Of a stretch of 64,000 nt of DNA, positions 15,588-52,595 are shown piece by piece. The notes below the pieces were generated by a model, which did no database searches, was not told the origin of the DNA, and worked only from the letters and a program-made list of their open reading frames with translations. A program made the position numbers and the translations under genes. This DNA is from Bacteroidota bacterium (GTDB lineage Bacteria > Bacteroidota > Bacteroidia > Bacteroidales > WCHB1-69). The number at the start of each line of letters is the position of its first letter. Position 1 is the stretch's first letter. Where the stretch lies: contig JAKPTX010000105.1 in the NCBI GenBank assembly GCA_029570835.1, forward strand, positions 1 to 64,000. Reading direction: 5' to 3'.

Positions 15588-18317
15588 CTATTGTTTAACA
15601 AACCGTTTGGATACCTGACCCTGTTCTGTGGTTAGGCGTATGATGTAAACACCTGATGCAAAGCTAGTTACATCTATTGATGTAATCTCTTCCTCAATGG
15701 GTAAAACGCGCATTAATCTACCATACATATCGTAAATATGGCACTCGGTTGCTCCCAGGTAATTTCTGTCTAATTTCAAGTCGATAACGGATTGGGTCGG
15801 ATTTGGATATAGTGTTACATATTGTGATAAATCATGCTCAGCAACACCCACTGTTGTATAAAAAACCAACTCTGTAAACAGACTTTCTCCAGAAGTACAA
15901 ATTGCCTTCACTCTGATCTGATACTGTGAATCACTTTGTAATCCGGTCATTGTAAATGAGGTAGTATGAGCTGTAGCAGTTGTCCAATTTGGAGAAGATA
16001 CCAATTTGTAGTCTATCTGCCATGAACTCTCAGATCCTCCGGCAGTCCAGGTAGCTAAAGCACTATTTGCGCTGATATTGGAAACAGCCAAATGAGTAGG
16101 TGGCAAACACCCTTCAATACCATCACTGGTGATTCTTATGTTATCAATCGCTGCGGGAGGAAGATTGATGTCAGAAGGATCGTTTTTCCAGCAGAAGTAA
16201 AGTCTCTTGGTGTAGCCGGAATAATCTGCAACCGGTAAAGTATAAGATGCTGTCTGCCATGTAGTCTGTTGTCCCATGGATGTATCCAACACTGTAACAC
16301 CGACTGGTACTGTGATTGTACCGGTCGTATTGGCAACGGGCAAAATAGGGGTACCAATATATACGTTAAGACAGTCGTATGAAGTTGTACCGTAAATTTC
16401 ACCGTTACATTTCCAGTCAAAAGTGAGCGTATAATCTGATATAGAAGGAGTAAAATAAATATCTCTAAACGCCCAAACTACAGCAGGAGTAGTGGAATAT
16501 GTGTTTGTAAGCCCATTATCATCAGAGATATATAATCCATGGCTACCGTCAGTCGTATTATTCACATCCTGTGCATTACCAATATACCAGTTGGCTCCGG
16601 AAGGATTATTTGCAAAAGCAAATCCTGAAGGTGTCTCAAAATCAATCACAAACGGTACATCCACAGGAGCTTGAGTAGTACAGAAAGTTCGTTTATTAGA
16701 CCAGTTACTTACCTCTCCGGGAGCACAAACAGATCTGACATAAAAATCATAATATGTTAATGGAGTTAATCCGGTAATTGTAGCAGGATTATTAGCGACT
16801 TGAATAACAGTACCTGTACCCTGTATAAATCCTGTCTCTCCATATTCTATTTCCCAAGAAGAAGGCATCCCGGACTCTATCCATGTTAATTCCAGTGAAT
16901 TATGTGCCGTGTTAATTAAAGTTAAATTTAACGGTTTTGGACAAGAAGGAATGTAGTCAACTACAACATCGTCTAACAAAAAACAGTAATATGATGAATT
17001 GGTAACATGCCTGAAAGCGATAAAGTTCCCTATTCCTGTCAGAGTTGTATTAGAAAACCTAACTTCATATTCTTGATAATTTTGAGTGATTGGAGTAATC
17101 ATTTGAACCAATTCAAAAGTTGATGGATCTAATGGATCTGACATGACACCCACATGAATCGTTCCTGAATTAGTCAAACTTTCAGCCCATAATTGAAATG
17201 TTACCATTAACGTATTGATATCAGCCCCCAATTGCTGCGTAATAACATAAGTTGGTTGAGAAGCGGAAGAGGATTGAAGCCTTAAACTTCCCGGTAAACT
17301 CATTGCATTTCCACTTACAATGGATGGATAAGGAATAGAAGTATATAATACCGGTCTAAACCAGCATGTTGGGAATATACCCGATCCTGTTCCATAAATA
17401 TCAAAATTTTCAGTATAAGGAAAAGTAGTAACTGCCTCACAAAAGGTAGTAAAGGAGATCGTACTCCATCCACTTGCATTGGTATCGCAAACCGATTTTA
17501 CTCTCACATCGTAGGTTGTCAGGGGATCTAAATTGGCAAGTGAGTACGCACCCAGATACAGAATCTGTTCAGCACTCCACACGGTTTCAATACTTTTCTT
17601 ATATTGTAATTTCCAGGAGATTCCGGTATTATGGGTATTCCAGATCAGATCAGCAGAGTTTGAAGTAATATTGACAACAGCTAAATTAGTGGGAGGATAA
17701 CAGAATCCTGCCGGAGGTGTAATTGTAAACTTGATATTGGCTCGTCTCCCTTCCTGCCCCGTTCCACTTGTGGAAGGAGCATTATCATTGGGAGGTGAAT
17801 TATCTGTACGTCTGTACCAGTGCGTAGCAGGAGCTTCATGGTTGTAGCAGTCAGTACGACAACTCCCGGTAGTATTACAACCCACACCCTCTATTAACAC
17901 CATTAAATTAGAAGTCCCTGAATAGGTAAATTGCGTATCGAACGCAAAAGTTTTCCACCCCGTCGGAGCGGAAGCCAAAGCATTATTTTCATACACCAAA
18001 GTAGCCCCCGTTTTGAGTGCATTCCAGGTGGTAGCAGAAAGTGCGGGCATGGTAGAAGCCGATGTTTCTTTTAAATAAATTTTAATTGTGGCATTGGTTC
18101 CGCTAGATGCCGATGCAATTTCAAAAGCAATGGCTGAAATCGGACCCCAAATACCTATTTCTTCCGCCTTATACAAATAGGCACTTCTATTCCACCCATA
18201 ATAACCCGGTAAAGGGTCAAAATAGGAGGTTGTTCCATTTCCAACCTGAATATCAACCTGTGCAAAAAGTTGAAATGAGGTCAGTATTGTAATGAACAAA
18301 AGTAATCCTTTTTTCAT
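15588..18317 (-). CDS. Modular FN3 surface protein with T9SS type A sorting domain (909 aa, smallest of five paralogues)
   Basis: Exported protein, probably attached to the cell surface or released by the type IX system. Order: signal peptide (1-20, ending FQLFAQ); N-domain of about 180 residues (21-203, from VGNGTTSYFDPLPGYYGW to RANIKFTIT); FN3; one choice-of-anchor-like module of the FRPV type (from FPYTENFDIYGTG); FN3; an H-type module (DVPFVIDFETPSGF ... PPAAIDNI); one FN3; T9SS tail from about 830 (LYPNPTQSVIDLKL ... GVYIIRLT ... RFVKQ). It lacks the second C-terminal FN3 and the InlB-like repeat found in its four large paralogues. No catalytic motif is visible. It is last in the minus-strand array, 182 bp downstream of the 3132-aa gene, with its own promoter-like TACATTTG. 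An adhesin or matrix role is inferred. Confidence 0.88.
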   Translation of the reverse strand: MKKGLLLFITILTSFQLFAQVDIQVGNGTTSYFDPLPGYYGWNRSAYLYKAEEIGIWGPISAIAFEIASASSGTNATIKIYLKETSASTMPALSATTWNALKTGATLVYENNALASAPTGWKTFAFDTQFTYSGTSNLMVLIEGVGCNTTGSCRTDCYNHEAPATHWYRRTDNSPPNDNAPSTSGTGQEGRRANIKFTITPPAGFCYPPTNLAVVNITSNSADLIWNTHNTGISWKLQYKKSIETVWSAEQILYLGAYSLANLDPLTTYDVRVKSVCDTNASGWSTISFTTFCEAVTTFPYTENFDIYGTGSGIFPTCWFRPVLYTSIPYPSIVSGNAMSLPGSLRLQSSSASQPTYVITQQLGADINTLMVTFQLWAESLTNSGTIHVGVMSDPLDPSTFELVQMITPITQNYQEYEVRFSNTTLTGIGNFIAFRHVTNSSYYCFLLDDVVVDYIPSCPKPLNLTLINTAHNSLELTWIESGMPSSWEIEYGETGFIQGTGTVIQVANNPATITGLTPLTYYDFYVRSVCAPGEVSNWSNKRTFCTTQAPVDVPFVIDFETPSGFAFANNPSGANWYIGNAQDVNNTTDGSHGLYISDDNGLTNTYSTTPAVVWAFRDIYFTPSISDYTLTFDWKCNGEIYGTTSYDCLNVYIGTPILPVANTTGTITVPVGVTVLDTSMGQQTTWQTASYTLPVADYSGYTKRLYFCWKNDPSDINLPPAAIDNIRITSDGIEGCLPPTHLAVSNISANSALATWTAGGSESSWQIDYKLVSSPNWTTATAHTTSFTMTGLQSDSQYQIRVKAICTSGESLFTELVFYTTVGVAEHDLSQYVTLYPNPTQSVIDLKLDRNYLGATECHIYDMYGRLMRVLPIEEEITSIDVTSFASGVYIIRLTTEQGQVSKRFVKQ

Positions 18318-18499: not shown

Positions 18500-21400
18500 T
18501 TATTTTTTAACAAAACGTTTAGATACCTGACCTTGTTCAGTAGTTAAGCGTACAAAGTATACACCTGCTGCAAAATCGCTCACATCAATTGTTGTGATCT
18601 CTTCTTCAATGGGCATAATACGCATTAACTTACCGTACATATCATAGATACGACACTCGGTAGTTCCCAAGTAATCTCTGTCTAACTTTAAGTCAATGAG
18701 AGATTGGGTTGGGTTAGGATAGAGTGTTACATATTGCGATAACTCATTCTCGGCAATACCTTCAGCGAAATCGACATGGATAGTGTGATTTGCTTGAATA
18801 TTCTCAAATGTATAGGATTCAGGAACAGGTACTTGTGGTACATTGTCCACCAGCACAACATCAATTCGATAACCTGCTTCCGGAGTGAAAGTGAAAGTTT
18901 GAGAACCTCCTTGATTCACTGTAACTGCGCCGGATGGAGTGATCGTTCCATGAGGACCTGCAGTAGCAGTAATAGTGTATGTTGCACTACCACCGGTTGT
19001 AAATGGAACAGGCTCAGTAAATGCACTCTCACCATTTGTACAGATTGCTTTCACTCTTACATGATAGTTGGAGTTACTTTGTAATCCTGTCATCGCAAAT
19101 GAGGTTGTAGTAGCTGTACCGGTTGTCCAGTTAGTAGAAGATACCAACTTGTAATCCACTTGCCATGAAGTCTCATTTCCTCCGGCTGTCCAGGTAGCTA
19201 ATGCAGACTGATCTGTTATATTAATAACCTGAAGATTAGTTGGAGTTACACAAGGTGTCGCAGAAGTAGTGAACGTAACAATAGAAGAATAAGCACTTAC
19301 TGTACCGTCAGCACAGTTCGCTTTAACCCTTGTCTCATACGTAGTAGAAGGTTGTAAACCGGTCATGGTATAAGTTGCAGTAGTTACATTTTGAACTGTC
19401 CAAGTGGTAGCTGCTGTAGTTTTATACTCAAACACCCATGAAGTTGCAGTACCGCCCCAAGTAGCTGTAGCACCGTTTGCACTGATATTGGAAATAGCCA
19501 GGTTAGTTGGTGGCAAGCAACCACTGATACCGGGACTGGTAATTTCAATATTATCAATCGCTGCAGGGGGTAGATTGACTACAGAACCATCATTCCTCCA
19601 GCAGTAGTAAAGTCTCATAGTTTGACCTGAGTAAGTAGCTGACGATAAGGTATAAGTTTGTGCATACCATGAAGTTTGCTGATTGAGATTAGTGCCTAGT
19701 GCAGTAGCACCGGTAGGTGCTGTAATCGTACCGGTAGTATTAGCAACAGGCATAACAGGAGCACCAATATACACATTAAAGTAATCATATGGATATGAAC
19801 CGCTACCCTCACCATAACACTTCCAGTCAAAGGTTAAAGTATAATCAGATGTAGAAGGAGTAAAATAGATATCTCTAAATGCCCAAACTACAGTTGAAGT
19901 TGTGGTATATGAATTTGTAACTCCGTTATCACTAGACACATACAATCCATTACTACCACCGGTCGTATTATTCACTCCTGTTGCACTTCCAGTGTACCAA
20001 CCTGTTCCTGTAGCATTATTTGCAAAAGTAAATCCTGATGCGGTTTCAAAGTCAATCATAAATGGCACATTAACGGGCTGTTGAGAGGTACAGTACGTTG
20101 CCTTGTTAGACCAGTAACTTTCATCTCCGGGACCACAAACGGATCTTACGTAGAAATCGTAACATGTAGATGAAGTCAATCCGGTAATTGAAGCAGGATT
20201 GGTAGTAACCGTAATAGTCGTTCCGTTACCTTGAGTGAAACCTGTTTCTCCATATTCTACTTCCCATGTAGTAGCCGTTCCATACTCAACCCAACCTAAA
20301 TCAAGAGAAGTTTGTGTTACGTTGGTAGAACTTAGATCAGCTGGTTTTGGACAAGAAGGAATAGGGAAAACTTCGACATTGTCCAACCAATAATAGTAAA
20401 CATCATTATTAGAAACGTGTCTGAATGCGATATAGTTTCCTGTTCCGCTTAGGGTTGTATTTGAAAACATTACTTCATACTCTTCGAAATTTGTATGGGT
20501 AGGAGTAATAGTGTGAACTAATTCAAAAGTTGTCAAATTAGTCGGATCAGACATTACACCCACCTCCATATTTCCTGAATAAGGCATATACTCAGCCTTC
20601 AATTGGAATGTAACCATTAATGTGTTAATATCAACATTAAATTGTGGTGTGATAGCATAAGTTGGTTGTGACGTAAGTGACTGGAATCTCAAACTTCCGG
20701 GTGAACTAACCGAATATGCACTTACAATAGAAGGATAAGGTGTTGAAGTATTCAGAACAGGTCTAAACCAGCATGGTGGGAATATACCGGATCCTGTACC
20801 ATAAACGTCAAAGTTTTCTGTCCAGGGGAATGTAGAAACAGCATCACATGCAGACCAGAAATGGTTCATATTTGACCATTCACTGGTACTTCCATCCAAA
20901 CATACTGAGCGAACATAAACCTCATAATGGGTATTAGCTGTTAATCCGGTAAGTTCTGCAAAAGTATCGTTAACCGCCACAGGAGTTTCATTATCAGGAT
21001 TAATTCCGGCAATACCATAAACATATTCATAACTTATCGCTGTAGGACTTGGAAGCCAGGATACAGTTGCTCCAGTCTGTGTAATACCGGAAAAACTAAT
21101 ATTGCTTGGTCGGATACAACTTGGAGCTTCATGCAATAGGAAATTATCCATATATATGGTGTTAGTACCATTAACACGAAGAGCTATATATTGTCCTGTA
21201 CCTGTATAAGTATGGAAGTTTACTTCAAACTCTTGGTATGTATTTGTTAATGTAGGTGTAGCTGTTCCCACCAAAGTAAAGGTATTGATATTCGTTGGAT
21301 CAGTCATCACTCCCACTTCTAATTGCTGTCCCATTGTAGCAGTTCTTGCCCAGAAGCGTACTTGTAGAGTAGTAATATCTAAAGTTTCACTTAGAGGAGG

Positions 21401-24400
21401 CAAAATCAATGTGGAATGATTAGTTCCATAAGAATAGAAATAAGCACTTTGTGGACTGGATATTGGATAACTGGTTGAGATATAAGGATAGCTTCCTTGT
21501 GTAGATAATCTGGTCCAACAAGTAGGTATAGAATTAGATCCTGATGGATAAGTATCAAAATTCTCGGTGAAAGGTAACAGTTCAATATCACCACAAAGTG
21601 TGGTAAATGAAATGAGTTTCCAGCTACTATAATCTCCTCCACCACAATCTGAACGCAATCTGAATTGGTAAGTTGTATTGGCGGCTAAATTGTCCAATAA
21701 ATAGGTAGTATTGGTAATTGTACCCAATGGAGTCCAGGTAGTTTCAGAATCTTCCTTGTACTCCCCTTCCCAGGAAGTTTCATACAAACCGGGAGCAATC
21801 ATCATCGTTGCTGAATTCACGTCAAGTTCGGTAAGGATAATATTAGGTCTAACACAGGTAACCTGATTACACTCACCCATAAATTTAATATTATTTCGAC
21901 TTGTAACAGCACTACTAGATGATGCAGAAGGAGATGTTAGAGAAATAGATCCACCATCTTGATAGAAATAGATCGCTTTAGTTCCTGTTGTTGTGTGCGT
22001 TCTAAACTTCGTTTCTGATGACGTATAAGAGCCTGTCATATCTCTAACTACTACAACTAAGTTGCTATCAGAATCATAAGCAAACGCACTGGGGAAGTTG
22101 ATCTCTAGCCAATAATCCGGATTGGTATTAACCCATGTAACATTACCTTGGTAAACCATCGTTAAGGATGAACCCGGAACAGCATCAGAAACCCCGGTAA
22201 AGGTTGTTTTATTGGTATGTCCCAAGTAAATTTCTATATTCCTGGTTAGAGAAGTATTGAAGAAATATTGGAAAGCCAATCCATAAATAGAGTCACCGAT
22301 ACCTGACAATTCTACAGCTTCATAAATTTGTTCTGTCAAACTATAATTATAGAAAGTATATGTTGGTAAATAGGCTCCATGTGTACTGGTTGTTGCATCT
22401 GGAGTTCCAACAATAATATCTCCTCCGTCAAAACAGGTTGTTCTAAATTGAACAGTCTCTCCGGTACCATCCTGTCCACTACATACCGGATATACGGTAA
22501 CAGAATAGTTAGTCAACTCATTCAAACCGGTCAATAAGAAATAATAGTTATTGGTTGTTTCATAAACCATTGCCTGAGTGGATAGATCTTCAATCTCAAT
22601 GGAGAAATAATCCGGAGTTCCGGCAGGAGCCCATGTCAGATAAGCTGAACTACCTGCAATATTAGAAACCTGAAGTTGAGTCAATGGTAAACAGTCAGGA
22701 GCCAGATCAAATGAAAAATCATCCAGAGTTAAATAATATGGTGACCCGGTAGCCTGGCAATAGACTCCAAAATAGTAAACTCCATCAGTTGAAGGAGTAA
22801 AGTAAGCCGTCATTTTTTGATATGCAGTATTATTCAATGTAGGTGCAGAAGCTATAGTACTAATTAAGGATGATGCACTTTGAGCTGAGTAAACTCCTGA
22901 TTCCAAAGTATTCCATCCACTGTAACCATCGGTAACGTACCAGAAAGAAAACTCATAAGAAACACCGGCTTGCAATTGGAATCCCGGAGTAAAGAAACGG
23001 TCATTACAGCTGTATCTAAAGTAAGCTGCTCCGGTTCCGGTACGAGCATTCCTATTATAGGAGTTATAATTTGTTATTTGAGTGTAAGTATAGTTTCCAA
23101 GACTTGTAGCATCCCAGCAAGCGGGTAAGGTATTGGCTACTGTCAAGTATTCAAAACTTTCTGTCCAGGGAAGTGTTTCAAAAGGCAAACATTCAGTAGT
23201 AGCAATAATAGTTTGTGGATGTGTACTGGTCTCAGTTCCACAATCTGCCTTAACACGAACCATATAGTCTGTTGCAGCATCCAGATTCGTAATAGTGTGA
23301 GGATTAGTATAAGCAAGATCTTCTTCCCAGGTATTATCCGTTACTTTTTTGTATTGAACAATCCAACTTGTAGCAGTACCATTTTCTGTCCAACCTATTT
23401 CTAATTCATCTGTAGCTGCCGAAACCACATGTACCTGAGTAGGTCTCGCACAATCAGAGTAGAGATCGATATCCAAATTATCAAGATACCCATAAGTATA
23501 AGTAGAACTATAACGAGCCATAAATGCTATATATTGACCGGTTCCTGTGTAGTTAGCAAATGAAACCGACTTCTCATACCATGTTGAAGTAGAGGGATTA
23601 GTAACAAAAGCCACCTGTTCAAAAGTAGAAGCATTGGTAGGATCTGTCATCACACCTATAAAGAGTGTATCAGTACTATTAGAAGTTCTATATCTAAAGA
23701 AGGCTTCCAAAGTGTTAATAGGAATAGATACGTCAAACTCTGGTGTAGCTGCAATATTATAGGTTCCAGATGTTCCCGCATAAAAATAAAGTGATCCGGG
23801 AGGTGAATAATTAGTACTGTTTACATAAGGCCTGTTGGCGTAAGTGGTTGTTCTTGTCCAGCAGGGTGGAAATACTGAAGTACCTGTGCCATAAGTGTCA
23901 AAATAATCACTCCATGGTAATGTAGTAATTGACCCACAAGCAGTCATAACATTCAACACCGCAGAATACTCACTCTCTTCACCACCACAATCTGACTTAA
24001 TACGAATCATATATGTAGTTGAGGGATCCAGATTCTGAATTGTATAAGAAGGAGTGGTGTAAACTAACTCCTCAGTCCAGGTATAATCTGACGCTTTTTT
24101 GTATTCAACAGTCCACGCGGTAGCATCACCATTTTCTTGCCACTCGATTTCTATTTCATTTTCATCCACAGAAACCGCTGCTAACATTGTAGGTTTAGGA
24201 CAAGTAGGAGCAAGATCTATAGTTACATTATCAAGATAACCGTAAACATAGGTAGAACCGTAGCGTGCCATAAATGCAATATATTGTCCGGTTCCTTGAT
24301 AGTTGGTAAAGTAAACCTCTTTATCATACCATGTTCCTGTAGAACTATTTGTAACGTAAGCTACCTGTTGGAAAGTAGCAGCATTGGAAGGATCTGTCAT

Positions 24401-27400
24401 CACGCCTATAAAGAGGGAGTCTGTACTATAAGAGGCATAATACTTAAAGGTTGCATAAAGCGTATTGACAGGAATAGACTCATCAAACTCGGGTGTAGCT
24501 GCAATATTATAGGATCCGGAGCTACCCGCGTAAAAATAGAGTGATCCGGGAGATGAAAAGTTAGTGGTAGATATATTAGGTCTGTCAGTAACAGTTGTTG
24601 TTCTTGTCCAGCAAGTTGGGAAAATTGTGGTACCTGTACCATAAGTATCAAAATTATCGACAAAAGGCAATTGATCAATAGCGCCACATTCTGTAGTAAA
24701 TGAAATCATTTTCCAACTACTATAATCCCCACCGCCACAATCTGAACGCAATCTAAACTGGTAAGTCGTATTGGCAGTTAAATTATCCAACATGTAATTG
24801 TCAACGGTAATCATACCCAATGAAGTCCAGGAGGTTTCAGTATCTTCCTTATACTCCCCTTCCCAGGAACTTTCATACATACCGGGAACAATGGTCATGG
24901 TTGCTGAAGTTACATCAACATTGGTGAGGATGATATTAGGTTTAACACAGGTAACCTGAAGACAATCACCCATAAATTTGATATTGTTTCGGTTGGTAGT
25001 AGAACTACTGCTAGATGCATATGGAGATGTGATAGGAATAGCTCCACCACTATCTTGATAGAAGTAGATTGCTTTGGTTCCTGATGTTGAATGCGTTCTA
25101 AACTTCTCTGAAGATGAAGTATAAGAACCTGTTATATCTCTAACTACAACCACCAGATTACTATCAGAATCATAAGCAAATGGAGTGGTAAAATTAAACT
25201 CCATCCAATAATCCATATTGGTATTAGTCCATGTAACATTACCTTGGTAAACCATAGTTAAGGATGACCCCGGAACAGCATCAGAAACTCCACTAAAGGT
25301 TGATTTATTAGTATGCCCCAAATAGATTTCTATATTCCTGGTTATATTAGTAGCGAAAAAATATTGGAAGGCCAATCCATAAATAGTGTCTCCAACACCT
25401 GACAAATCAGCAGCATCATAAATCTGTTCTGTCAATGAATAATTATAGTATGTGTATGTCGGCAAATATTGTCCACTGGAACTGGTAGTTGCATTGGGGG
25501 TTCCAACAATAATTTCTCCTCCTTCAAAACAAACTGTGCTGAATTGAATGGTCTCTCCATTAGCTGCCTGTCCACTACATACAGGATATACAGTAACGGA
25601 ATAGTCAGTCATTTCATTCAACCCGGTCAATATGTAGTCATAATTATTGGTTGTTAAATTAGTTACTGCCTGTGTGGATAGATCCTCAACCTCAATAGCA
25701 AAATAATCGGGAGTTCCTGCAGGAGCCCATGTTAGATAAGCAGAGCTTCCCGTAATATTAGAAACCTGAAGTTGTGTTAGCGGTAAGCAATCCGGAGCCA
25801 AATCTACTGAAAAATCATCAATAGTTATAAAGTAAGGCGATGTACTGGATTGACAATAGACTCCAAAATAATACACTCCATCAGCTGTGGGAGTAAAGTA
25901 GCCGGTCAACTGTTGATAGGTAGTATTGTTCAATGTAATTGCAGAGGCTATAGTATGCAGCAAAGCAGATGGAGTTTGAGATGAATAGACTCCCGACTCT
26001 AAAGTTTGCCATCCGCTTAATCCATCGGTAATATACCAGAAGGAGAACTCATAAGAAACACCGGCTTGCAGTTGAATACCCGGGGTAAAGAAACGGTCAT
26101 TACAGCCGTATCTGAAGTAAGCAGCCCCTAATCCGGTATGAGCAAATCTATTGTAAGAAGTATAGTTCATATTTTGCGTATTGGTATAACCGCTAGTGCC
26201 CCCAAAGTTCGTAGCTGCCCAACAAGGAGGTAAGTAATTGGCTGCCGGTAGATTTTCGAAACTTTCCATCCATGGAATGGTTTCAACAGGCAAACAATCG
26301 GTAGTCGCAACAATAGTTTGTGGATGTGAACTCAACACACCCCCACAATCTGCCTTAACACGAACCCAATAATGTGTTCCCGGCTCCAAATTCGCAAGTG
26401 TATGCGGATTAGTATATGCCAAATCTTGACTCCAAACAGTTTCCGTTACTTTTCTATATTCAACAACCCAATTCGTAGCTGTACCATTTTCAGTCCAACC
26501 TATTTCCAACTCATCTGTTGTGGCTGAAACCACTTGTACTTGAGTAGGTCTTACACAAGTAGAATAGAGATCAATTTCTAAATTATCAAGATAAGCGTAC
26601 ATATAAGTAGAACTATAGTGGACCTTAAAAGCTATATATTGTCCTGTTCCTGTGTAATTATTAAAGGAAACCTCTTTTTCATACCATGTACCGGTAGTTG
26701 GATTGGTAACAAAAGCTATCTGTTCAAAAGTTGTAGCATCGGTAGGATCCGTCATTACACCAACAAAGAGTGTATCGGTAGCGTAAACAGTTCTATATTT
26801 GAATATTGCTTGCAAGGTATTAATAGGAATAGATACGTCAAACTCAGGTGTAGCTGCAATATTGTAAGTACCGGATGTACCTGCATAAAAATAAAGCGAT
26901 CCGGGAGCTGAGTAGTGAGTACCACTCACATAAGGTCTGTCTGTATAAGTTGTATTTCTTGTCCAACATGGAGGGAAAACCGAGGTTCCTGTGCCATAAG
27001 TGTCAAAATAATCACTCCATGGTATAGTGGAAATGGGTACACAGTCGGTCATTGCATATAATATTGGTGAATAATCACTCACTTCGGTACCACAATTGGA
27101 TTGAACCCTAATCATATATACAGTTTGAGGATCCAGGTTAGAAATTGTGTAGGGATTAATAGAAGCGGTTTCCACTATCCAGTTCGTATCGGTTAATGTT
27201 CTGTGCTCAACGATCCAACTCGTAGCAGTACCATTCTCTTGCCATCCTATCTCTAATTGATCTGTTCCGCTCGAAACCACATTTAAATTTGTTGGTTTAG
27301 GACAAGTAGGGATGTAGTCCACCTCAACATCATCCAACCAGTAATAGTAGATTGAATTATTGGTAACATGTTTAAAGGCAATATGATTCCCTGTTCCGGT

Positions 27401-28207: not shown

Positions 28208-28238
28208 GGGGGTTAAATTAAAATTGAACATGGCTGTA

Positions 28239-43000: not shown

Positions 43001-44707
43001 TCTTGTCCAGCAGGTCGGGAAAACCGAGCTACCTGTACCATAAGTGTCAAAACTATCAGTCCAGGGTAAATTCACAATTGATTCACAAAGAGTCATCGCA
43101 GTGATTGATTGTGAATAATAACTCTCTTCGGTTCCACAATCTGCCTTAACCCGAATCATATATTCAGTTTCAGCATCTAAATTATAAATTGTATAGGGAT
43201 TTATGTTCGCAGTTTCTACTTGCCAGGTGGCATCCGTTGTTTTCTTATACTCAACAACCCAACTCGTAGCAAAACCATTTTCAACCCACCCTACTTCTAA
43301 CTGATCCATTTCGGCAGAGATTACTGCTACATTAGTAGGCTTAAGACAAGTAGGTATTAGACCTATTCTTACATCATCCAAATATGCATATGAAGTAGCT
43401 GTAGCATTGCTAATCTTAAATGCTATGTATTGTCCTATTCCCATATAATTATCAAAGGAAACCTCTTTTTCATACCATGTTGAGGTAGAACTATTGGTAA
43501 CGAAAGCTACCTGTTCAAAAGTAGAAGCATCTGTAGGGTCTGTCATTACCCCTATAAACAATGTATCTGTAGAAAGAGTTGTTCTATACATAAAATCAGC
43601 ATGTAGTGTACTGACAGGAATAGATGCATCAAACATCGGAGTAGCTGCAATATTATAGTTTCCGGAAATTGCATAAAAATAGAGCGATCCCGGCGCTGAA
43701 AAGTTAGTGCTGCTTACATAGGGTCTATCGGTCTGAGTTGTCGTTCTTGTCCAGCAAGGTGGAAAAACCGTAGTTCCTGTACCATAAGTATCAAAACTAT
43801 CTGTCCAGGGTAGTGCGGCAATTGCCCCACAAGCTGTCATAAAGGAAGTCGTACTCCATCCACTTTCATCGGCGCTGCAAATCGATTTCACTCTAACATC
43901 GTAGGTTGCTTGAGCATCTAAATTGGCCAGTGAATATGAACCTGAAAACACCATAGCTTCATCACTCCATACCGTTTCACTATTTTTCTTATATTGTACT
44001 ATCCACCAATTGCCTGATGTATGGGTATCCCAGGTAATATCAGCAGAACTTGAAGTAATATTACTTGCTGCTAAGTTAGAAGGAGGATAGCAAAAACCTG
44101 CGGGAGGCGTGATTGTCAACTTAATATTAGATCGTTTACTTATATCTGTTGTTGTATTTGCAGGAGGGACAGAATCATCCGGAGCTGAGCTATCTTTACG
44201 GTGATACCAGTGCATATTATCAGCAGTATGGTATGCACAGGATACGCTACAACCTCCGGTAGTAGAGCAACCTTCTCCTTCTATCAACACCATCAAATTG
44301 CTGGTTCCTGAATAAGTAAATGGGGTATCAAACGTAAAAGTTTTCCAGCCGGTCGGAGCCGCAGCTAAAGCATTATTTTCATATACCAAAGTGGCACCGG
44401 TTTTTAAAGCATTCCAACTGATTGTGTTAATTGCAGGCATGGTAGAGTTGGTAGTTTCTACCAGATAAATTTTCATTTTGGCAGTTGTTCCCGTGGAAGC
44501 CGATTTAATATCATAGGCAATGGCTGAAATCGTTCCACTCAAATTGATCTCATCTGCCTTGTACAGCATGGCACTTCTATGCCACCCATAATAACCCGGG
44601 AGAGGATGGGTGGTGGAAGAGGTTCCACTTCCAATCTGAATATCAACTTGTGCAAAAAGTTGAAATGACATCAAAACTGACATCAAAAAAAGTAAGATTT
44701 TTTTCAT
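37004..44707 (-). CDS. Giant modular FN3 surface protein with T9SS type A sorting domain (2567 aa)
   Basis: Signal peptide MKKILLFLMSVLMSFQLFAQ; N-domain (GSGTSSTTHPLPGYYGW) plus FN3; then seven modules of only two kinds, B (FPPCWTR type) and G (CWFRPV type), in the order B-B-G-B-B-G-G, each with an FN3; then H, two FN3, an InlB-like repeat and the T9SS tail. Approximate DNA starts: 43812, 43062, 42322, 41572, 40820, 40076, 39318 and H 38570, i.e. a regular step of about 750 nt. Compared with the neighbours it is low in module diversity and looks expanded by repeated local duplication. FN3 domains carry a conserved cysteine pattern (C near the start, C before G late in the domain). No catalytic motif; surface adhesin or matrix role inferred. 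Confidence 0.9.
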   Translation of the reverse strand: MKKILLFLMSVLMSFQLFAQVDIQIGSGTSSTTHPLPGYYGWHRSAMLYKADEINLSGTISAIAYDIKSASTGTTAKMKIYLVETTNSTMPAINTISWNALKTGATLVYENNALAAAPTGWKTFTFDTPFTYSGTSNLMVLIEGEGCSTTGGCSVSCAYHTADNMHWYHRKDSSAPDDSVPPANTTTDISKRSNIKLTITPPAGFCYPPSNLAASNITSSSADITWDTHTSGNWWIVQYKKNSETVWSDEAMVFSGSYSLANLDAQATYDVRVKSICSADESGWSTTSFMTACGAIAALPWTDSFDTYGTGTTVFPPCWTRTTTQTDRPYVSSTNFSAPGSLYFYAISGNYNIAATPMFDASIPVSTLHADFMYRTTLSTDTLFIGVMTDPTDASTFEQVAFVTNSSTSTWYEKEVSFDNYMGIGQYIAFKISNATATSYAYLDDVRIGLIPTCLKPTNVAVISAEMDQLEVGWVENGFATSWVVEYKKTTDATWQVETANINPYTIYNLDAETEYMIRVKADCGTEESYYSQSITAMTLCESIVNLPWTDSFDTYGTGSSVFPTCWTRNTTYANRPYVSTTNFSSPGSLYFYVSSGTYNIAATPKFDASIPINTLQAAFKYRTSSGTDTLFIGAMTNPLDTSTFELITYVTNSSTVTWHDKEVFLSSYQGNGQYIAFMIRCGSSTAVAYIDDLEISLIPSCPKPSDLAIVSIASDQLEVGWTENGTATSWIFEYKETAETTWQVENASTNPHTIYNLDPQTQYEVRVKANCGTEESNYSQTLTVTTPCTAITTLPWSEYFDTYGTGSGAFPPCWFRPVLYGTTPYPSIVTVNYSAPGSLRFQSATTQPTYAVTPQMDVDINTLMVTFQLRAENTISSGVMHVGVMSNPYDPSTFELVQIITPTSTSFQEYEVFFANTTLTGTGNFIAFKHVTNSASYYYWLDNVVVDLIPPCPKPSGLTVVSAETDQLEIGWLESGTATSWTFEYKNVADTAWIVEYVYNNPHTIYNLDPSTFYEIRIKSDCGTEDSEYSDVFTAMTACGAIETLPWSDSFDTYGTGTSVFPPCWTRNTTYADRPYVHGTTYYSAPGSLYFYAGTSGTYNIAATPEFDASIPINTLHATFMYRTYTATDTLFIGVMTDPTDASTFDEVAYLTNNSTGTWYAKEVFFANYTGTGQYIAFKIRYSSPNTYAYIDDLTVDLIPSCPSPTLLTLVNAETDELEVGWQENGTATSWIVEYKKASEEIWTEELAFTNPHTIQNLEASTTYMIRVKADCGFEESDYSSVLNAMTACGSISTLPWSDYFDTYGTGTSVFPPCWTRTSTQTDRPYVSSTYYISSPGSLYFYAGTGNYNIAATPEFDASIAINTLQAIFMYRTTYSTDTLFIGVMTDPTNASTFEQVTFVTNASTGTWYEKEVSFANYQGTGQYIAFMIRYNTSAAYAYIDNLDIDLYSSCARPTQIHLVSATTDELEIGWTENGTATSWIVEYKKVTDNVWEEETAYINPYTISNLDPQTDYMVRVKADCGTETSTLPQTIIASTACLPVGTFPWSESFDTYGTTAGTFPPCWYRPVLNTSTPYPSIVTVNNTPPGSLRFQSASASQPTYAITPQMDADINTLMITFQLRAESASSSGVMHVGVMSNPYDLTTFELVQIITPTNTSFQEYEVMFSNTTLTGTGNYIAFKHVTNSSAYYYWLDDVVVEFMPDCPRPTDLTVVSIASDQVEVGWTENGTATSWVVEYKEATATTWQVENAYANPHTIMNLNASTNYEIRVKADCGTEDSDYSVPLTVTTSCLAVDSFPYTENFDTYGTTTGTFPTCWFRPVLNTSTPYPSIVTAYSVSSPASLRFQSASATVPTYAITPQLDADINTLMVTFQLKAESVTNSGVMHVGVMSNPYDLTTFELVQIITPTGTSFEEHEVMFSNTTLTGTGNYIAFKHVTNSSIYYYWLDDVVVDLIPSCPRPADLTSSNVTQTSLDLGWVEYGTATAWEVEYGATGFTQGTGTILAVATNPVSITGLTESTCYDFYVRSVCAPGDESDWSNMATFCTSQTPVNVPFTIDFETASGFTFANNTSGNNWHVGNAADVNNTTGGSNGLYISNDNGVTNAYSNTSCVVWAFRDIYFTPSTDDYTLTFDWKCRGESSFDYFNVYIGVPVMPVASTSSTIIAPAGATTLGTILNQQTTWQSETYTLSATTYSGQTMRLYFGWRNDSSVSNQPPAAIDNIEITGPEVCLPPTNLAISNISATGATATWGGTAASWVFEYKTAAATTWTTQAVTTATYTMTGLQPSTAYETRVKAICDDGEVSDYSSVVSFTTSATPCVTPTNLQVTNITDQSALATWTAGGTETSWQVDYKLVSSSNWTTGTATTTSFAMTGLQSNSNYHVRVKAICTTGESAFTEPVPFTTAGTTTYTITATAGPHGTITPSGDVTVNEGGSQTFTFTPEAGYRIDVVLVDNVPQVPVPESYTFENIQANHTIHVDFAEGIAENELSQYVTLYPNPTQSLIDLKLDRDYLGTTECRIYDMYGKLMRIMPIEEEITTIDVSDFATGVYFVRLTTEQGQVSKRFVKK

Positions 44708-45015: not shown

Positions 45016-45056
45016 GGGAAAACAAAACAATAGATATGGTCGTAAAAATGGCTGTA

Positions 45057-45078: not shown

Positions 45079-45254
45079 CATGACCATGTGCATCGTATTT
45101 TCATTTCTCTGATAATCAACGTTTTCAATACACAATTTGCCCAAAAGGCAGAATATTCCAGAGTGGGGAAATGATATAACTAAAAAGTAGCCCCCACGCT
45201 GCCCCCCCTTTTTTTTTATTTCCAAAATAAAGACAAAAAAATCATCTCTAAACG

Positions 45255-48200
45255 CTACTGTTTTACAAAGCGTTTAGATACTTGCCCTTGTTCTGTAGTT
45301 AGGTGTATAAAGTAAATACCTGATGCAAAGTGAGTTACATCGACAGTTGTAATTTCTTCCTCAATGGGCAAAATATGCATTAACTTACCGTACATATCAT
45401 AGATTCGACACTGTGTTGTACCCAGATAATCGATATCTAACTTCAAATCGATGAGAGATTGGGTAGGATTAGGATAAAGCGTAACATATCTTGATAAATC
45501 GTTCTCTGCAATACCTTCCGCAAAATCGACATGAATTGTGTGATTTCCTTGAATATTCTCAAATGTATAGGATTCGGGAACAGGTACTTGTGGTACATTG
45601 TCCACTAACACAACATCAATTCGACAACCTGCATCCGGAGTGAAGATAAATGTTTGGGATCCGCTCTGATAAACCGTAACTACACCGGAAGGAGTAATTG
45701 TTCCGTGAGGACCCGCTGTAGCAACAATAGTATATGTTGTATTACCGCCGGTTAAAAAAGTGACATGATCCGTGAACGTACTTTCTTCGGATGTACAAAT
45801 CGCTTTGACCCTAACATGATACAAAGTACTACTTTGTAATCCTGTAATCGTAAATGAAGGTGTATTTGTTGTATTTGCTATCCAGTTATCAGCTGATGCC
45901 AACTTGTACTCCACTTGCCATGAAGGCTCGGATCCTCCGGCAGTCCAAGTCGCTAATGCAGAGTTATTGGTCACATTACTCACCTGTAAGTTAGTTGGAG
46001 TAACACAAGGTGTAGCCGGAGTAGTAAAAGAGACAATAGGAGTATAAAAACTCTCTTGTCCGCCAATACAGATCGCTTTAACCCTTGTGTCATATGGAGT
46101 AGAAGGTTGCAAACCGGTCATAGTATAAGTTCGATTATGTACATTTTGAGTTGTCCAGGTTGTATCTTCTGCTTTTTTATACTCAAATTGCCATGAATAT
46201 GTAACTCCCCATCCGGCAGCATTTCCGCCCCAGTATGCCGTAGCACTATTTGAAGTGATATTATCAACAAACAAGCTAACCGGACTCAAGCATTCCGAAA
46301 AATCAGCACTGGTAATTTTAAGATTGTCGATTGTTGCAGGAGGTTGATTTACAGTAACATCATCATTTCTCCAGCAGATATAGAGTCTTTTGTGTTGACC
46401 TGAGTAGTCAGCTGCCGGCAAGGTGCGAGATGTTTCCTGCCATGTCGGCTTTTGATTCATGAATGTAGCCAATGGTGTTGCACCGACAGGTAATGTAATT
46501 AAACCGGTATTACTGGTATCAGGCGTCATAGGTGAACCTATATAGATGTGAAAATAGTCATTGGTAGCTTCACCTTGACACTTCCATTCAAAGGTCATAA
46601 CATAATTGGAAGCGGAAGGAGTAAAGTAAATATCTCTATATGCCCAAACTACAGCCGGAGTAGCAGTATAGGAGTTTGTAAATCCATTATCAGCAGAAAT
46701 ATATAATCCGGATACACCATTCAGTGTAACATTTACACCCGGTGCATTTCCAATATACCAACCGGTTCCGGAAGTATTCGCAAAAAGAAATCCTGACTCC
46801 GTTTCAAAGTCAAAATTAAACGGCACATTTACGGGGGCATAAGAAGTACAGAAAGTTCTTTTATTTGACCAATCACTTGTATCACCTATAGCACAAACAG
46901 AACGAACATAAAAATCATAACAAGTCCCTACAGTTAATCCGGTGATAGTAGCCGGATTAGTCGATACTTGAACTATTGTATCGGTTCCCGGGGTAGAGCC
47001 CTCCACTCCATACTTTATTTCCCAAGTGGTAGCCGTACCCAACTCAACCCATCCCAAATCCAATGATGTTTGTGTCACGTTGGTAGTGTACAGACCTGAT
47101 GGTCCCGGACAGTTAGGCAAGAGATCTATCTCTACATCATCAACATAAGCATATACATTATAGGCAGTCCCTCTATCGCAGACCTTAAATGCAATATATT
47201 GTCCGGATCCTGTGTAGTTACTGAAAAAAACCTCTTTTGCATACCACATTGCAGGAGTAGCATTTGTAACAAAAGTTACCTCTTCAAAAGTAGCAGCATT
47301 GTTAGGATCGGTCATCACCCCTATAAAGAGTGTATCAGTAGGATAGCGGGTTCTATACATAAAAGAAAGTCGTAGAGTATTAACAGGAACAGATGCATGA
47401 ATTTTAGGTGTGACTGCAATAGAATAATTGTCCAAATATGCTTTAAACCAAAGAGATCCGGGAGGTGAAAAGTTAGTGTTATCTATACAAAGGGAGTTGG
47501 TCAAAGTTGCTATTCTTGTCCAGCAGGGTGGAAAAATTGATGAACCTACGCCATAAGTATCAAAACTATCAGTCCAGGGAAATGAACCAATAACACCACA
47601 CCCTGTAAGGAACGAAGTCATAACCGTCCATTCACTGGTATCTCCTCCAATACAAACAGAGCGAACATACACTTCATACAAGGTGTTAGCTGTTAATGCG
47701 TAGAGTGTCACAAAAGTATCATAAACCGGATAGGGAATCTCATTATCGGGATCGATTCCGGTCAAGCCATAAACTATTTCATAATGTACTGCTGTAGGAG
47801 CCGCTAACCAGGATACAGTTGTTTCTTCTCCTAAAATATTAGAAAAAGTAATACCCGATGGTCTGACACAATCCGCCATTTCTCTCAATATTAAGTCATC
47901 CACATATATATTGCAACTACCATTTGCACGAATTGCTATGTATCGTCCTGTACCGGTATAGGTATTAAAGTTAACTTCAAACTCTTGATATGTATTTAAA
48001 ATTGAAGGCATAGCTGTTCCCATTACAGTAAAAGTAGAATTATCCAATGGGTCGGTCATTACTCCCACTTCTAATTGATGTCCCAATGTTACAGTTCTTG
48101 CCCAGAACACCATCTGCAAAGTAGTAATATCTATATTTTCACCTAAAGGAGGGAGAATTAATGTAGCATAATGATTTGCTGTAGAATAGAAATAAGCACT

Positions 48201-51200
48201 GTGTGGGGTAGAGATTGGATTGTGATTTGAAATGTAAGGATGACTCCCTTGTGAGTTCAGTTTGGACCAGCAGGTAGGTATCGAACCGTAAGGATAGGAA
48301 TCAAAGTTTTCAACAAAAGGTAACTGGTCAATATTTCCACAAAGTGTAGTAAATGAAATTGCTTTCCAGTTACTCTGCTCTGTACCACAAATTGAACGCA
48401 ATCTAAATAGATAACTTGTATTACCGACTAAACTATCCAAAATATAATCAGTATCGGTAATTACACCCAGTGATGTCCAATCTGTTTCGGATTCTACCTT
48501 ATACTCCCCTTCCCATGAAGTTTCATTCATCCCGGGAGCAATCATGAAGGTCGCCGAATAAGTATCAAAATTGGCAAGGATAATATTAGGTTTAATACAG
48601 TTAGTTTGGATACAAGGAACTAAAAATTTAATGTTATTTCTGTTCGAAACAGCATTACTACCTGATCCGGATGGGGCTGTAATTGAGATAGGTCCACCAC
48701 TATTTTGAATGAAATAGAGCGCTTTGGTTCCTTGTGTTGCATGAGTTCTAAAGTGCGTCACGGATGAGGTAGTTGAATTTGTCATATCTCTGATCACTAC
48801 GACCAGGTTGCTGTCGGAATCATAAGCAAATGGAGCAGTAAAATTAATCTCTACCCAATAATCCGGATTGGTATTAGTCCACGTAACGGATCCCTGATAA
48901 ACCAGAGTTAAGAATGAACCCGGTACACAATCTGAAACTCCACTAAAAGTTGTTTTACCGGTATGCCCCAAATAGATTTCTATATTTCTGGTTATAGGAT
49001 AAAGATAAAAAAATTGGAATGCTAGTCCATAAATAGAATCACCTACATTTAAGAGTTCAGCAGCATTATAAATCTGTTCTGATAATGAATAACTATAGCA
49101 AGGAGTTATCGGCAAATATGCTCCTTGTGAATTAGTTGTCGCATCGGGTGTTCCAACAATGAGATCTCCTCCTTCAAAACAATCTGTTTTGAATTGAATG
49201 GTATCTCCCATTCCTTCCTGTCCATTACATAGCGGATATACAGAAACTGAATAGTAAGTTTGCTCATTTAACCCGGTTAATAGATAAAAATAGTCAGTAG
49301 TCGTTTCAATTACCGTTGTATTAGTAGATAGATTTTCTATTTCAACAGAGAAAAAGTCAGGATTTCCGGCAGAAGTCCAGGTTAAATATGCAGAGCTACC
49401 TGCAATATTAGAAACCTGAAGTTGAGTAAGCGGTAAACAATCCGGAGCCAAATCCAATGAAAAGTCATCAAGAGTTATATACTGTGGTGATGAAGTAGAA
49501 CGGCAATAAATTCCAAAATAGTAAACTCCATTTTCTTCAGGAGTAAAGTATGCATCAAGTTTCTGATATGTAGTGTTGTTCAATGATGGTGCAATAACTA
49601 GAGTTTGAATCAAAGCAGATGAATTTTGAGCTGAATAAACTCCTGTTTCCAAAGTTTGCCATCCGTTGTAACCATCGGTAACATACCAAAAAGAGAACTC
49701 ATAAGAAACACCGGCTTGCAACTGGAAACCCGGAGAAAAGAAACGGTCATTACAGCCATATCTAAAATAAGCAGCACCTGTTCCGGTACGAGCATTTCTA
49801 TTAAAGGAACCATAGTTTGTAATTTGCGTATTGGTATAGGTTCCAAATCCTGTGGCTGCCCAGCATTGAGGTAAAGTAGAGGCTGCCGCTAAATCTTCAA
49901 ACCCCTCAGTCCATGGAACTGTGGCAATAGGTACACATGCTGTGGTGAAAGTTCCTATCGGTGTCGGCTCCGATAATTCTTCTCCACAATCGGTTCTTAA
50001 ATAGAACTGATAGGTTTGTTCCGGGGATAATCCTGTCAGAATATAAGGATAGTTATAGATATACACTGAATCCCAATCTGTTGAAGATTGTGGTTTATAA
50101 TAAAGGAACCAGGCGGATAATGCCGGACTCGCGGGTATAAAATCAATCTCCGCACTTTGATGAGTAACCCCGACTACTGAAACATCAGTGGGACTTGCAC
50201 AATCAGGAAGCGGCTCGACCAAAACATCATCAATATTTAAGATGTATCCTCCCGCTGTATTTCTCACAAAAGCAAATTGATAATTCCCAACATATTGGCT
50301 TAAATTCAACTCATATTCTGTCCATACAAAGGTAGGAATAACAGTATTAGGCATCAAGTCAATAAAATCGGATGTGTCTGACTCTGTACTCACCGGACCC
50401 ATTGAAGCATCAAAAATCTTAACTGACAAGATATCAGTAGTAGAGTATGCTTTGACCCAGAAACTCAATTGTTCATTTCCGGTTAATGAAAGCACCGGAG
50501 AAATAAACCAGTCATCATGAATATATACAGTTGAACTAGAATACATTTGTAATGCACTATTTCCGGTACGAACATAGTTGGAATATGTTGTTTTAGCCCA
50601 CGATCCGGACCCTGACCCTCCATTAATATTAATCCAACACCATGGGTGTGAACCTGTACTTAACCCGTTGCCCTCATACCAAATACCTTCAAAACCTTCA
50701 CTCCATGGAAAATCAGTAATTGGGACACAAGGCATACCCACACTGATTATGTTTGTTGGTAAAGTAGGCTCACCTACCAAACAGTTTGCAGATATCATTA
50801 TTTCGTACACAAGATTGGGTTCCAGACCTATTAGTATAAAGGGGTGGTAGAATGCTTCTACTGTCTCCCAATCTGTGGCACCTACATGTCTGTAGAATAT
50901 ATTCCAAGAAAAAACGTTACTATCTTCAGCACCATCCCAATCTAAAGTTATACTACTTTCTGTCAGACCTGTATCAATACTTGTCAAACCGGTTGGGGTA
51001 TTACAGCTAGGCGCAAAACCAATCCACACATCATCTATATAGATTCTATTATTATATGAAAGGTCTTGAACTTTAAAAGCGATATATTGACCTGTACCGG
51101 TATAAGATGCAAAATTCACGGTGAATTGTTCCCATGTACTAACATTCGTAGGAGTGAGCGTAGCTACTGATTCAAACGTTGTCATATCCTGTGGATCTGA

Positions 51201-52595
51201 AATAACACCTACCTCAATAGTATTTGAAATTGCCATTTTATACAACTGAAAATGCACAATCAAGGTACTGATATCAATAAAAGAAGCAAATTCGGGTGTA
51301 ATTGCATAATTGTACGCACCTGAAGTGGTGTACATATACATTGCACCGGGAGAAGAAAATGAATTGGTGTTGGATATACATGGATAGCTATTAGAAGAGA
51401 TTTTGCTCCAACATGGTGGAAAAACCCCACTTCCCGTACCATAGGTGTCAAAACTATCATTCCAAGGTAAAGTCTCAATGGGTTCGCAAGCAGTCATAAT
51501 AGTAGCTATCTCTGAATAATCACTCTCTTCACCACTACAATATGACTTGATTCGAATCATATATTGAGTTGCACTTTCTAAGTTATAGATTGTATGAGGG
51601 TTAGTATAAGGATAATCCAGTGTCCATATAGAGTCTGTCACTTTTTTATATTCAAAAATCCAGCTTGTAGCAGTGCCATTTTCCTGCCATCCTATCTCCA
51701 GCTGATCTGTTGCTGCAGAAACCACTGAAATATTTGTGGGTTTAGGACAAAGAGGAATTAAATCTATGACTACATCATCAAGATAAACAGTTCCATTGCG
51801 AACCATAAATGCTACATATTGTCCGATTCCTGTGTAATTATTGAATAGAACTTCCTTTGAATACCATGTATTAGTAGAGCTGTTTGTTACAAAAGCTACT
51901 TGCTCAAAAGTAGAGACATCAGCAGGATCTGTCATTACACCTAAGAATAGTGTGTCTGTAGCAAATGTGGTTCTATACATAAAAGTCGCCTGAACGGTAT
52001 TAATAGGAAAAGATACGTCAATTTCGGGCGTAACTACCACATGATTGACACCGGCTACAGTATAAAAATAGAGTGATCCGGGAGGTGAATAGTTCACAAA
52101 ATATATGTAAGGTACGTTGACATAACTTGGATTTCTTGTCCAACAAGTTGGAAAAACCGTATTACCTACACCATAAGTGTCAAAACTATCAGTCCAGGGT
52201 AGTGTGGTAATGATTCCACAATCTGTCGTAAAGGAGCCTATACTCCATACACTTTCACTATTGTTACATACCGATTTGACTCTGACATCATAAGTTGTTT
52301 CAGGATCAAGATTTGCCAATGAATACTCACCCAAATACACAATCTGTCCGGCATTCCAAACCGTATCACTATTTTTCTTGTACTGTACTTCCCAATAATT
52401 TCCAGAAATATCCGTATCCCAGTTAAGATCAGCAGAACTTGCAGTAATATTGTTTACAACCAAGTTGGCAGGAGGAGTACAGGAATCTTCAACGGGTGTA
52501 TAGGTGATAGTTCTGTTCCCAACCTGAAAATTAATCTGTGCAAAAGACTGAAATGATATCAAAATTGAAATCAGAAAGAGTAAGATTTTTTTCAT
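45255..52595 (-). CDS. Giant modular FN3 surface protein with T9SS type A sorting domain (2446 aa)
   Basis: Signal peptide MKKILLFLISILISFQSFAQ, then only about 18 residues (INFQVGNRTITYTPVEDSC) before the first FN3. The start of the N-domain is recognisable but its body of about 180 residues is missing. Modules follow as B-I-J-C-D-F-B-H (approximate DNA starts 52200, 51472, 50712, 49912, 49178, 48322, 47582, 46845), the same order and near-equal spacing as in the 2624-aa paralogue. Then two FN3, an InlB-like repeat (IVATAGPHGTITPSG) and the T9SS tail (LYPNPTQSLIDLKL ... GIYFIHLT ... RFVKQ). Its sequence is the most diverged of the four large copies. It is the upstream-most gene of the array on its strand; its promoter is TACATTTG at 52656. 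Confidence 0.9.
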   Translation of the reverse strand: MKKILLFLISILISFQSFAQINFQVGNRTITYTPVEDSCTPPANLVVNNITASSADLNWDTDISGNYWEVQYKKNSDTVWNAGQIVYLGEYSLANLDPETTYDVRVKSVCNNSESVWSIGSFTTDCGIITTLPWTDSFDTYGVGNTVFPTCWTRNPSYVNVPYIYFVNYSPPGSLYFYTVAGVNHVVVTPEIDVSFPINTVQATFMYRTTFATDTLFLGVMTDPADVSTFEQVAFVTNSSTNTWYSKEVLFNNYTGIGQYVAFMVRNGTVYLDDVVIDLIPLCPKPTNISVVSAATDQLEIGWQENGTATSWIFEYKKVTDSIWTLDYPYTNPHTIYNLESATQYMIRIKSYCSGEESDYSEIATIMTACEPIETLPWNDSFDTYGTGSGVFPPCWSKISSNSYPCISNTNSFSSPGAMYMYTTSGAYNYAITPEFASFIDISTLIVHFQLYKMAISNTIEVGVISDPQDMTTFESVATLTPTNVSTWEQFTVNFASYTGTGQYIAFKVQDLSYNNRIYIDDVWIGFAPSCNTPTGLTSIDTGLTESSITLDWDGAEDSNVFSWNIFYRHVGATDWETVEAFYHPFILIGLEPNLVYEIMISANCLVGEPTLPTNIISVGMPCVPITDFPWSEGFEGIWYEGNGLSTGSHPWCWININGGSGSGSWAKTTYSNYVRTGNSALQMYSSSTVYIHDDWFISPVLSLTGNEQLSFWVKAYSTTDILSVKIFDASMGPVSTESDTSDFIDLMPNTVIPTFVWTEYELNLSQYVGNYQFAFVRNTAGGYILNIDDVLVEPLPDCASPTDVSVVGVTHQSAEIDFIPASPALSAWFLYYKPQSSTDWDSVYIYNYPYILTGLSPEQTYQFYLRTDCGEELSEPTPIGTFTTACVPIATVPWTEGFEDLAAASTLPQCWAATGFGTYTNTQITNYGSFNRNARTGTGAAYFRYGCNDRFFSPGFQLQAGVSYEFSFWYVTDGYNGWQTLETGVYSAQNSSALIQTLVIAPSLNNTTYQKLDAYFTPEENGVYYFGIYCRSTSSPQYITLDDFSLDLAPDCLPLTQLQVSNIAGSSAYLTWTSAGNPDFFSVEIENLSTNTTVIETTTDYFYLLTGLNEQTYYSVSVYPLCNGQEGMGDTIQFKTDCFEGGDLIVGTPDATTNSQGAYLPITPCYSYSLSEQIYNAAELLNVGDSIYGLAFQFFYLYPITRNIEIYLGHTGKTTFSGVSDCVPGSFLTLVYQGSVTWTNTNPDYWVEINFTAPFAYDSDSNLVVVIRDMTNSTTSSVTHFRTHATQGTKALYFIQNSGGPISITAPSGSGSNAVSNRNNIKFLVPCIQTNCIKPNIILANFDTYSATFMIAPGMNETSWEGEYKVESETDWTSLGVITDTDYILDSLVGNTSYLFRLRSICGTEQSNWKAISFTTLCGNIDQLPFVENFDSYPYGSIPTCWSKLNSQGSHPYISNHNPISTPHSAYFYSTANHYATLILPPLGENIDITTLQMVFWARTVTLGHQLEVGVMTDPLDNSTFTVMGTAMPSILNTYQEFEVNFNTYTGTGRYIAIRANGSCNIYVDDLILREMADCVRPSGITFSNILGEETTVSWLAAPTAVHYEIVYGLTGIDPDNEIPYPVYDTFVTLYALTANTLYEVYVRSVCIGGDTSEWTVMTSFLTGCGVIGSFPWTDSFDTYGVGSSIFPPCWTRIATLTNSLCIDNTNFSPPGSLWFKAYLDNYSIAVTPKIHASVPVNTLRLSFMYRTRYPTDTLFIGVMTDPNNAATFEEVTFVTNATPAMWYAKEVFFSNYTGSGQYIAFKVCDRGTAYNVYAYVDDVEIDLLPNCPGPSGLYTTNVTQTSLDLGWVELGTATTWEIKYGVEGSTPGTDTIVQVSTNPATITGLTVGTCYDFYVRSVCAIGDTSDWSNKRTFCTSYAPVNVPFNFDFETESGFLFANTSGTGWYIGNAPGVNVTLNGVSGLYISADNGFTNSYTATPAVVWAYRDIYFTPSASNYVMTFEWKCQGEATNDYFHIYIGSPMTPDTSNTGLITLPVGATPLATFMNQKPTWQETSRTLPAADYSGQHKRLYICWRNDDVTVNQPPATIDNLKITSADFSECLSPVSLFVDNITSNSATAYWGGNAAGWGVTYSWQFEYKKAEDTTWTTQNVHNRTYTMTGLQPSTPYDTRVKAICIGGQESFYTPIVSFTTPATPCVTPTNLQVSNVTNNSALATWTAGGSEPSWQVEYKLASADNWIANTTNTPSFTITGLQSSTLYHVRVKAICTSEESTFTDHVTFLTGGNTTYTIVATAGPHGTITPSGVVTVYQSGSQTFIFTPDAGCRIDVVLVDNVPQVPVPESYTFENIQGNHTIHVDFAEGIAENDLSRYVTLYPNPTQSLIDLKLDIDYLGTTQCRIYDMYGKLMHILPIEEEITTVDVTHFASGIYFIHLTTEQGQVSKRFVKQ

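Follow-up and report, generated by a model that had tools for sequence, protein, structure and literature searches.

The minus strand carries five intact genes, named W1 to W5, in head-to-tail order at 15588–52595 of the window (the whole 64,000-nt stretch of DNA that was analysed), where they fill 37 kb and encode proteins of 909–3132 aa. The array is bounded by a mutarotase gene (52696–53787) and by an M49 peptidase gene on the opposite strand (13803–15452). The assembly that contains the window, G000, is fragmented and comprises 2.92 Mb in 277 contigs, with a completeness of 95% and a contamination of 4.75%. An earlier note on this DNA had described five same-strand giant genes with fixed ends, and its interior module strings were found to be in the correct order for all five. 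The ends are also as it described them: a signal peptide and a T9SS tail are present in each gene, TIGR04183 being matched in W1–W4 (the proteins scanned) and the tail being visible in W5; the InlB-like repeat, said to be usual, occurs in four of the five genes (W1 is without it), and the full N-domain in three (W1, W3 and W4). W5 retains just the first N-domain residues, a remnant that looks as it would after an in-frame deletion. For W3, the mechanical ORF starts at an upstream TTG, which extends the gene to 36584 and the protein to 2642 aa; the ATG gives 2624 aa.

Table 1. Features of the array. Coordinates are those of the window; letters denote module types, UA and UB are array genes of the sister species G001, and C256c belongs to a second array in G000.
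Feature	Coordinates	Strand	Description
W1	15588..18317	-	909 aa; signal peptide, N-domain, FN3, G jelly roll, FN3, H jelly roll, FN3, T9SS tail; without InlB-like repeat; N-G-H
W2	18500..27898	-	3132 aa; A-B-C-D-E-B-C-D-F-G-H with FN3 linkers, InlB-like repeat, T9SS tail; UB (G001) is its orthologue
W2 InlB-like repeat and T9SS tail	18500..18991	-	homogenised block
W2 module 5	23453..23941	-	B jelly roll; G jelly roll in orthologue UB; single-domain swap between species; dS 1.9, dN 0.64
W3	28656..36530	-	2624 aa from ATG; N-B-I-J-C-D-F-B-H, InlB-like repeat, T9SS tail; modules N to J (head) orthologous to UA (G001)
W3 InlB-like repeat and T9SS tail	28656..29147	-	homogenised block; InlB-like part dS 0.13 to W4, 0.15 to C256c
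W3 signal peptide and N-domain	35916..36530	-	orthologous to UA N-domain; 89% nt, dS 0.34
W4	37004..44707	-	2567 aa; N-B-B-G-B-B-G-G-H, InlB-like repeat, T9SS tail; final G-G-H modules orthologous to UA (G001)
W4 InlB-like repeat and T9SS tail	37004..37495	-	homogenised block; InlB-like part dS 0.92 to UA vs H 0.33
W4 B jelly roll and FN3	40094..40840	-	one repeat unit, used for AlphaFold2 model; pLDDT 94
W5	45255..52595	-	2446 aa; N-domain deleted, B-I-J-C-D-F-B-H, InlB-like repeat, T9SS tail
W5 InlB-like repeat and T9SS tail	45255..45746	-	not homogenised; T9SS tail dS 1.0-2.0 to W2-W4

Modules, folds and spacers

Most interior modules follow one repeating unit: a jelly roll of ~160–190 aa and then an FN3 domain of ~87 aa, which together span ~750 nt. 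This is the module size that the earlier note had given; FN3, which it had placed in the C-terminal block only, lies between all modules. The D and N modules are a different domain. In the module tree, A falls within the G clade (support 100/100) and E within the B clade (100/99). Modules of the same type are mostly 60–98% identical in protein, which excludes chance. An origin of the repeats by chance or from low-complexity sequence was ruled out, the modules being folded domains with conserved cores. Jelly-roll similarity tracks the downstream FN3 more than the upstream FN3 (r of 0.66 vs 0.45), which suggests that the usual travelling unit would be a jelly roll together with the FN3 that follows it.

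FN3 and the T9SS sorting tail were recognised by Pfam and NCBIfam models, as were, in part, domains of the cleaved-adhesin or choice-of-anchor J type. The type A tail (TIGR04183) or PF18962 was found in W1–W4, the N-termini of all five genes are hydrophobic, and the T9SS translocon protein SprA (SprA N domain) is encoded in the same genome. The cleaved-adhesin model PF07675 matched W4 with 25.9 bits (cut-off 21.4), gave no match to W1 or W3 at E<=0.01, and matched 2 of 21 single units at that threshold. The choice-of-anchor J model NF038128 scored 139.1 bits for W2 and 147.2 bits for W3 against a cut-off of 30; W1 and W4 were not listed. AlphaFold2 modelled the single unit of W4 given in Table 1 as a jelly roll plus FN3, and among the Foldseek matches of this model are ectodomains of MAM-Ig-FN3 receptors and accessory domains of glycosidases. 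For the N-domain, the model was middling (pLDDT 75), and most of the matches in its fold search ran through the attached FN3. Searches of PDB sequences with repeat-unit profiles returned FN3 proteins only, and a single-sequence query, whose reading frame was unchecked, returned no match.

The spacers of the array contain several small repeats. The 17-mer AACATTCCAGAGTGGGG occurs at 28123–28139, 36683–36699 and 44859–44875 and is present in 43 copies in the genome at <=1 mismatch, the reversed control giving 0; it is often trailed some 30–40 nt on by CTGCCCCCC and is a putative dispersed element. Short repeats GAAGGCGGAAGGCGG and CCGTAATTCGTAATTC, together with small palindromes, recur in the spacers 15453–15587, 27899–28655, 36531–37003 and 44708–45254. 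Imperfect inverted repeats are found in array spacers, and that between W5 and W4 (44797–45230) has arms of 79 nt which are 73% complementary and 276 nt apart. An Rfam scan of the window recognised no RNA family.

The array in a sister species

A syntenic array locus exists on contig C13 of the sister species G001 (UBA5429). Its order is a tRNA-dihydrouridine-synthase-like gene, which lies beside the mutarotase, then a broken mutarotase remnant (12188–12731), and then the array genes UA and UB, the latter being incomplete as it is cut by the contig end. The mutarotase is intact in the window, and the M49-family peptidase has only a distant match in G001. The flanking DNA of the two species is 88–90% identical in nucleotides and five flanking genes have a dS of 0.46–0.72. 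A singleton paralogue (C165a in G000, UC23 in G001) provides an internal control: it is colinear across both species, with lengths of 2613 and 2612 aa, 86% nucleotide identity and a median dS of 0.51, and therefore the family does not rearrange by default. The comparison rests on one informative sister genome, and both assemblies are fragmented; G001 was assembled from a metagenome and has N gaps, and its contigs break at paralogue loci (C13 ends and C41 starts there, and C18 and C33 begin adjacent). Because the G001 contigs end at these loci, the idea that the two species differ in copy number was not retained. One of these contig ends (C41, 1–3094) carries a W2-type F-G-H gene end beside metal-dependent-hydrolase-like and aspartate-semialdehyde-dehydrogenase-like genes, which in G000 flank C165b; this placement reflects either inter-locus exchange or chromosomal rearrangement.

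UB is the orthologue of W2. Both read A-B-C-D-E-x-C-D, with a median dS of 0.51 for paired blocks, and position x is occupied by a B jelly roll in W2 and by a G jelly roll in UB. Sliding identity is ~0.8 up to the FN3/jelly-roll border, where it drops to about 0.4, and it rises again at the FN3 that follows. The swapped module of UB has no exact run >37 bp in common with other array genes, which makes a short-read chimera unlikely, and its best matches are ~70% identical. The swap is a clean one and fits better with conversion or a double exchange than with a single unequal crossover; here, the jelly roll alone may have moved.

UA has the order N-G-I-J-G-G-G-H and, by its divergence values, has a head and a tail that derive from different paralogue types. 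Its N and J modules match W3 (dS of 0.34 and 0.35), with N being at 0.85 to W4, and its tail matches W4 (G modules 0.28–0.34, the FN3 before H 0.22, H 0.33). The switch from W3-like head to W4-like tail is located at an FN3/jelly-roll border near codon 970. The InlB-like repeat of UA is close to neither W3 nor W4 (dS of 0.86–0.92). As UA has exact internal repeats of 77–129 bp, its G-G-G stretch could be partly misassembled.

The C-terminal block behaves differently from the domain next to it. For the pair W3/W4, dS is 0.82 in H vs 0.13 in the InlB-like repeat, and for W3 and C256c, a gene of the second array, the values are 0.66 vs 0.15. The values for the InlB-like repeat are below the species divergence, which indicates that the C-terminal block was exchanged later than the neighbouring domain diverged, and that this took place across arrays too. 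W1, W5 and C256d are outside this homogenisation. These patterns support the view that the constant ends probably stay constant partly through exchange; the tail is also under purifying selection (dN near 0.01).

Relatives in the genome and known systems

The related genes or gene ends in G000 number about a dozen. A second array of four genes lies on contig C256, and further copies or gene ends are found on C165, C201 and C218. One gene of the second array, C256b (C256:8252–15010), encodes a gingipain-like protease with a C25 propeptide, peptidase C25 and C25_C, followed by FN3/jelly-roll modules and a T9SS tail, and its x4 module is 71% identical to H of W1. C256a also has a C25 domain, and three further C25 genes are located elsewhere in the genome. 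Judged by these matches, predicted adhesin-only proteins of this genome use the same modules as its C25 proteases, as in HagA, RgpA and Kgp of Porphyromonas gingivalis.

These P. gingivalis proteins have combinatorial adhesin modules that differ between strains (PMC5266723), and DUF2436 domains are among the adhesin modules of HagA/gingipain-type proteins (PMC5266723). The likeness extends to long surface proteins of repeated adhesin domains exported by T9SS (predicted here), to a module order that varies between lineages, to repeats that defeat short-read assembly, and to the use of modules in both non-proteolytic adhesins and C25 proteases, of which C256b is the example here. In contrast, the window array has FN3 between its jelly rolls and matched PF07675 weakly, its five adhesin genes form one tandem array, and its documented changes are between species and not strains. 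Pfam scans of W1, W3, W4 and C256b gave no match to DUF2436. The array was therefore filed as resembling the HagA kind but not as a member of HagA itself, on the basis of its FN3 linkers, the lack of DUF2436 and the tandem layout.

Two other comparisons were made. W2 and W3 resemble NF038128 proteins with a T9SS type A tail, as they score above the cut-off and have T9SS tails; however, that family is a domain label, which is silent on tandem arrays or exchange between genes. Tandem arrays with common tails are present in other genera of the same family too. Contig C23 of G018, for example, carries five same-strand genes with shared tails (77–87% in nucleotides) and divergent interiors, but the module set is different and the interiors are too divergent for a signal of shuffling at the DNA level. 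Unlike in the window, the flanking genes of the array sit elsewhere in the genomes of other genera with tandem arrays, and no conserved insertion site was found in those checked, where the left and right flanking genes are on different contigs or 41 kb apart. Apart from P. gingivalis, a literature search on shuffling in FN3/T9SS tandem arrays yielded no direct precedent.

Shuffling and its pace

Module order is not identical in the sister species, which differs by the swap and the fusion, and the module trees show the cross-gene clustering that the earlier note anticipated. AU tests reject gene-wise clades for the G modules of W4 (p-AU 0.004), the G modules of UA (0.002) and the B modules of W4 (0.045); the groups tested were picked after a first tree, so that these p-values are indicative. 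The observations are probably best explained if the tandem array encodes modular adhesins that reach the cell surface through T9SS and if it is shuffled by ordinary homologous recombination, over species time and not by a programmed switch. In sequence, the interior is a chain of MAM/cleaved-adhesin-like jelly rolls split by FN3, with the signal peptide and T9SS tail retained in each gene. As the comparison shows, in-frame exchange between paralogous modules has, since about the split from the sister species, substituted a single jelly roll in one of a pair of orthologues, fused a head and a tail of different paralogue types, and made the C-terminal block alike in several copies, one of them in the second array. 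Exchange would proceed by RecA-type gene conversion or crossing-over via similarity at conserved domain borders, possibly with the DNA of other lineages. The tail would be held constant because export needs it, with selection keeping the frame and the tail, and the interior would set ligand binding and mediate adhesion, a role that we infer from the domains.

A variant of this explanation differs in the source of the DNA: the exchanged modules would stem chiefly from horizontal transfer between lineages (allelic exchange), and not from neighbouring paralogues. Some inter-species module pairs have a dS of 0.22–0.36, which is below that of the flanking genes, W2 and UB share a 131-bp identical run, and the modest best matches of the swapped UB module (UB_x5) would also fit. 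In addition, the related P. gingivalis is naturally competent (PMC5266723). Yet the homogenised tails cluster within the G000 genome and local paralogues exist for every swapped module type, and we consider a mainly foreign source possible but unlikely. A broader proposal, to which we assign a rather low probability, is that of a genome-wide module pool, in which several arrays, comprising both adhesins and gingipain-like proteases, would trade their jelly rolls and tails through gene conversion inside populations. If true, surface binding and protease targeting would diversify together.

The pace of exchange bears on whether the array is an active system for antigenic or phase variation at the population level, in which the five genes and the C256 array would serve as mutual donors for cassette-like gene conversion. 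Constant ends with variable interiors, C-terminal blocks homogenised across two arrays, the dozen or so related genes or gene ends, and the 129-bp exact run that two G modules of UA share are what such a system might produce. However, no exact run between any two paralogues of G000 exceeds 101 bp (C256a with C165c). The longest involving a window gene is 98 bp (W2 with C256c) and the longest within the window is 92 bp (W3 with W4), a limit that is soft as near-identical copies tend to be under-represented in short-read assemblies. For most matching modules dS is 0.5–1.0, and the G000 genome contains no near-identical donor/recipient tracts or module pairs. In addition, no recombinase was seen among the window ORFs >=100 aa (read by eye), no silent cassettes were found, all five genes being complete, full-length ORFs with signal peptides, and no proven invertible promoter was recognised. 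The exact-run limits speak against a rapid programmed system and would be compatible with slower exchange within populations, and we regard active variation as improbable. The diversifying system proposed in the earlier note is borne out as to module exchange between paralogues at domain borders, as revealed by the sister species, and homogenisation of the constant C-terminal end; its active operation is not, as neither a near-identical module pair in the genome nor a recombinase or silent cassette was recognised.

Separately, the stretch of W2 that is identical to UB over 131 bp lies in the E module, at about 24520–24655 of the window, and is found despite a species dS of ~0.5.

Finally, plain ancient duplication and divergence, in which the ancestral genes already differed, each species lost different copies and no shuffling occurred near or after the split, would account for the many modules that diverged long ago and for W3 and W5, which are colinear duplicates with a median dS of 0.75 whose duplication predates the species split, but it is very improbable given that W3-orthologous and W4-orthologous parts reside in one gene (UA), that dS between W3 and W4 falls so steeply from H to the InlB-like repeat, and that W2 and UB differ in one internal domain only.

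Shuffling by ordinary homologous recombination, as favoured here, would mean that the combinatorial modularity of adhesins described for one oral pathogen also exists in an uncultured, Bacteroidales-like lineage. The exchanged unit is resolved to domain borders, with the colinear singleton paralogue of the same two genomes as an internal control. The loci also serve as a warning that short-read assemblies break at such arrays. For the gene family itself, the results suggest a double role of recombination, which may keep the export end uniform while it re-orders the binding interior.
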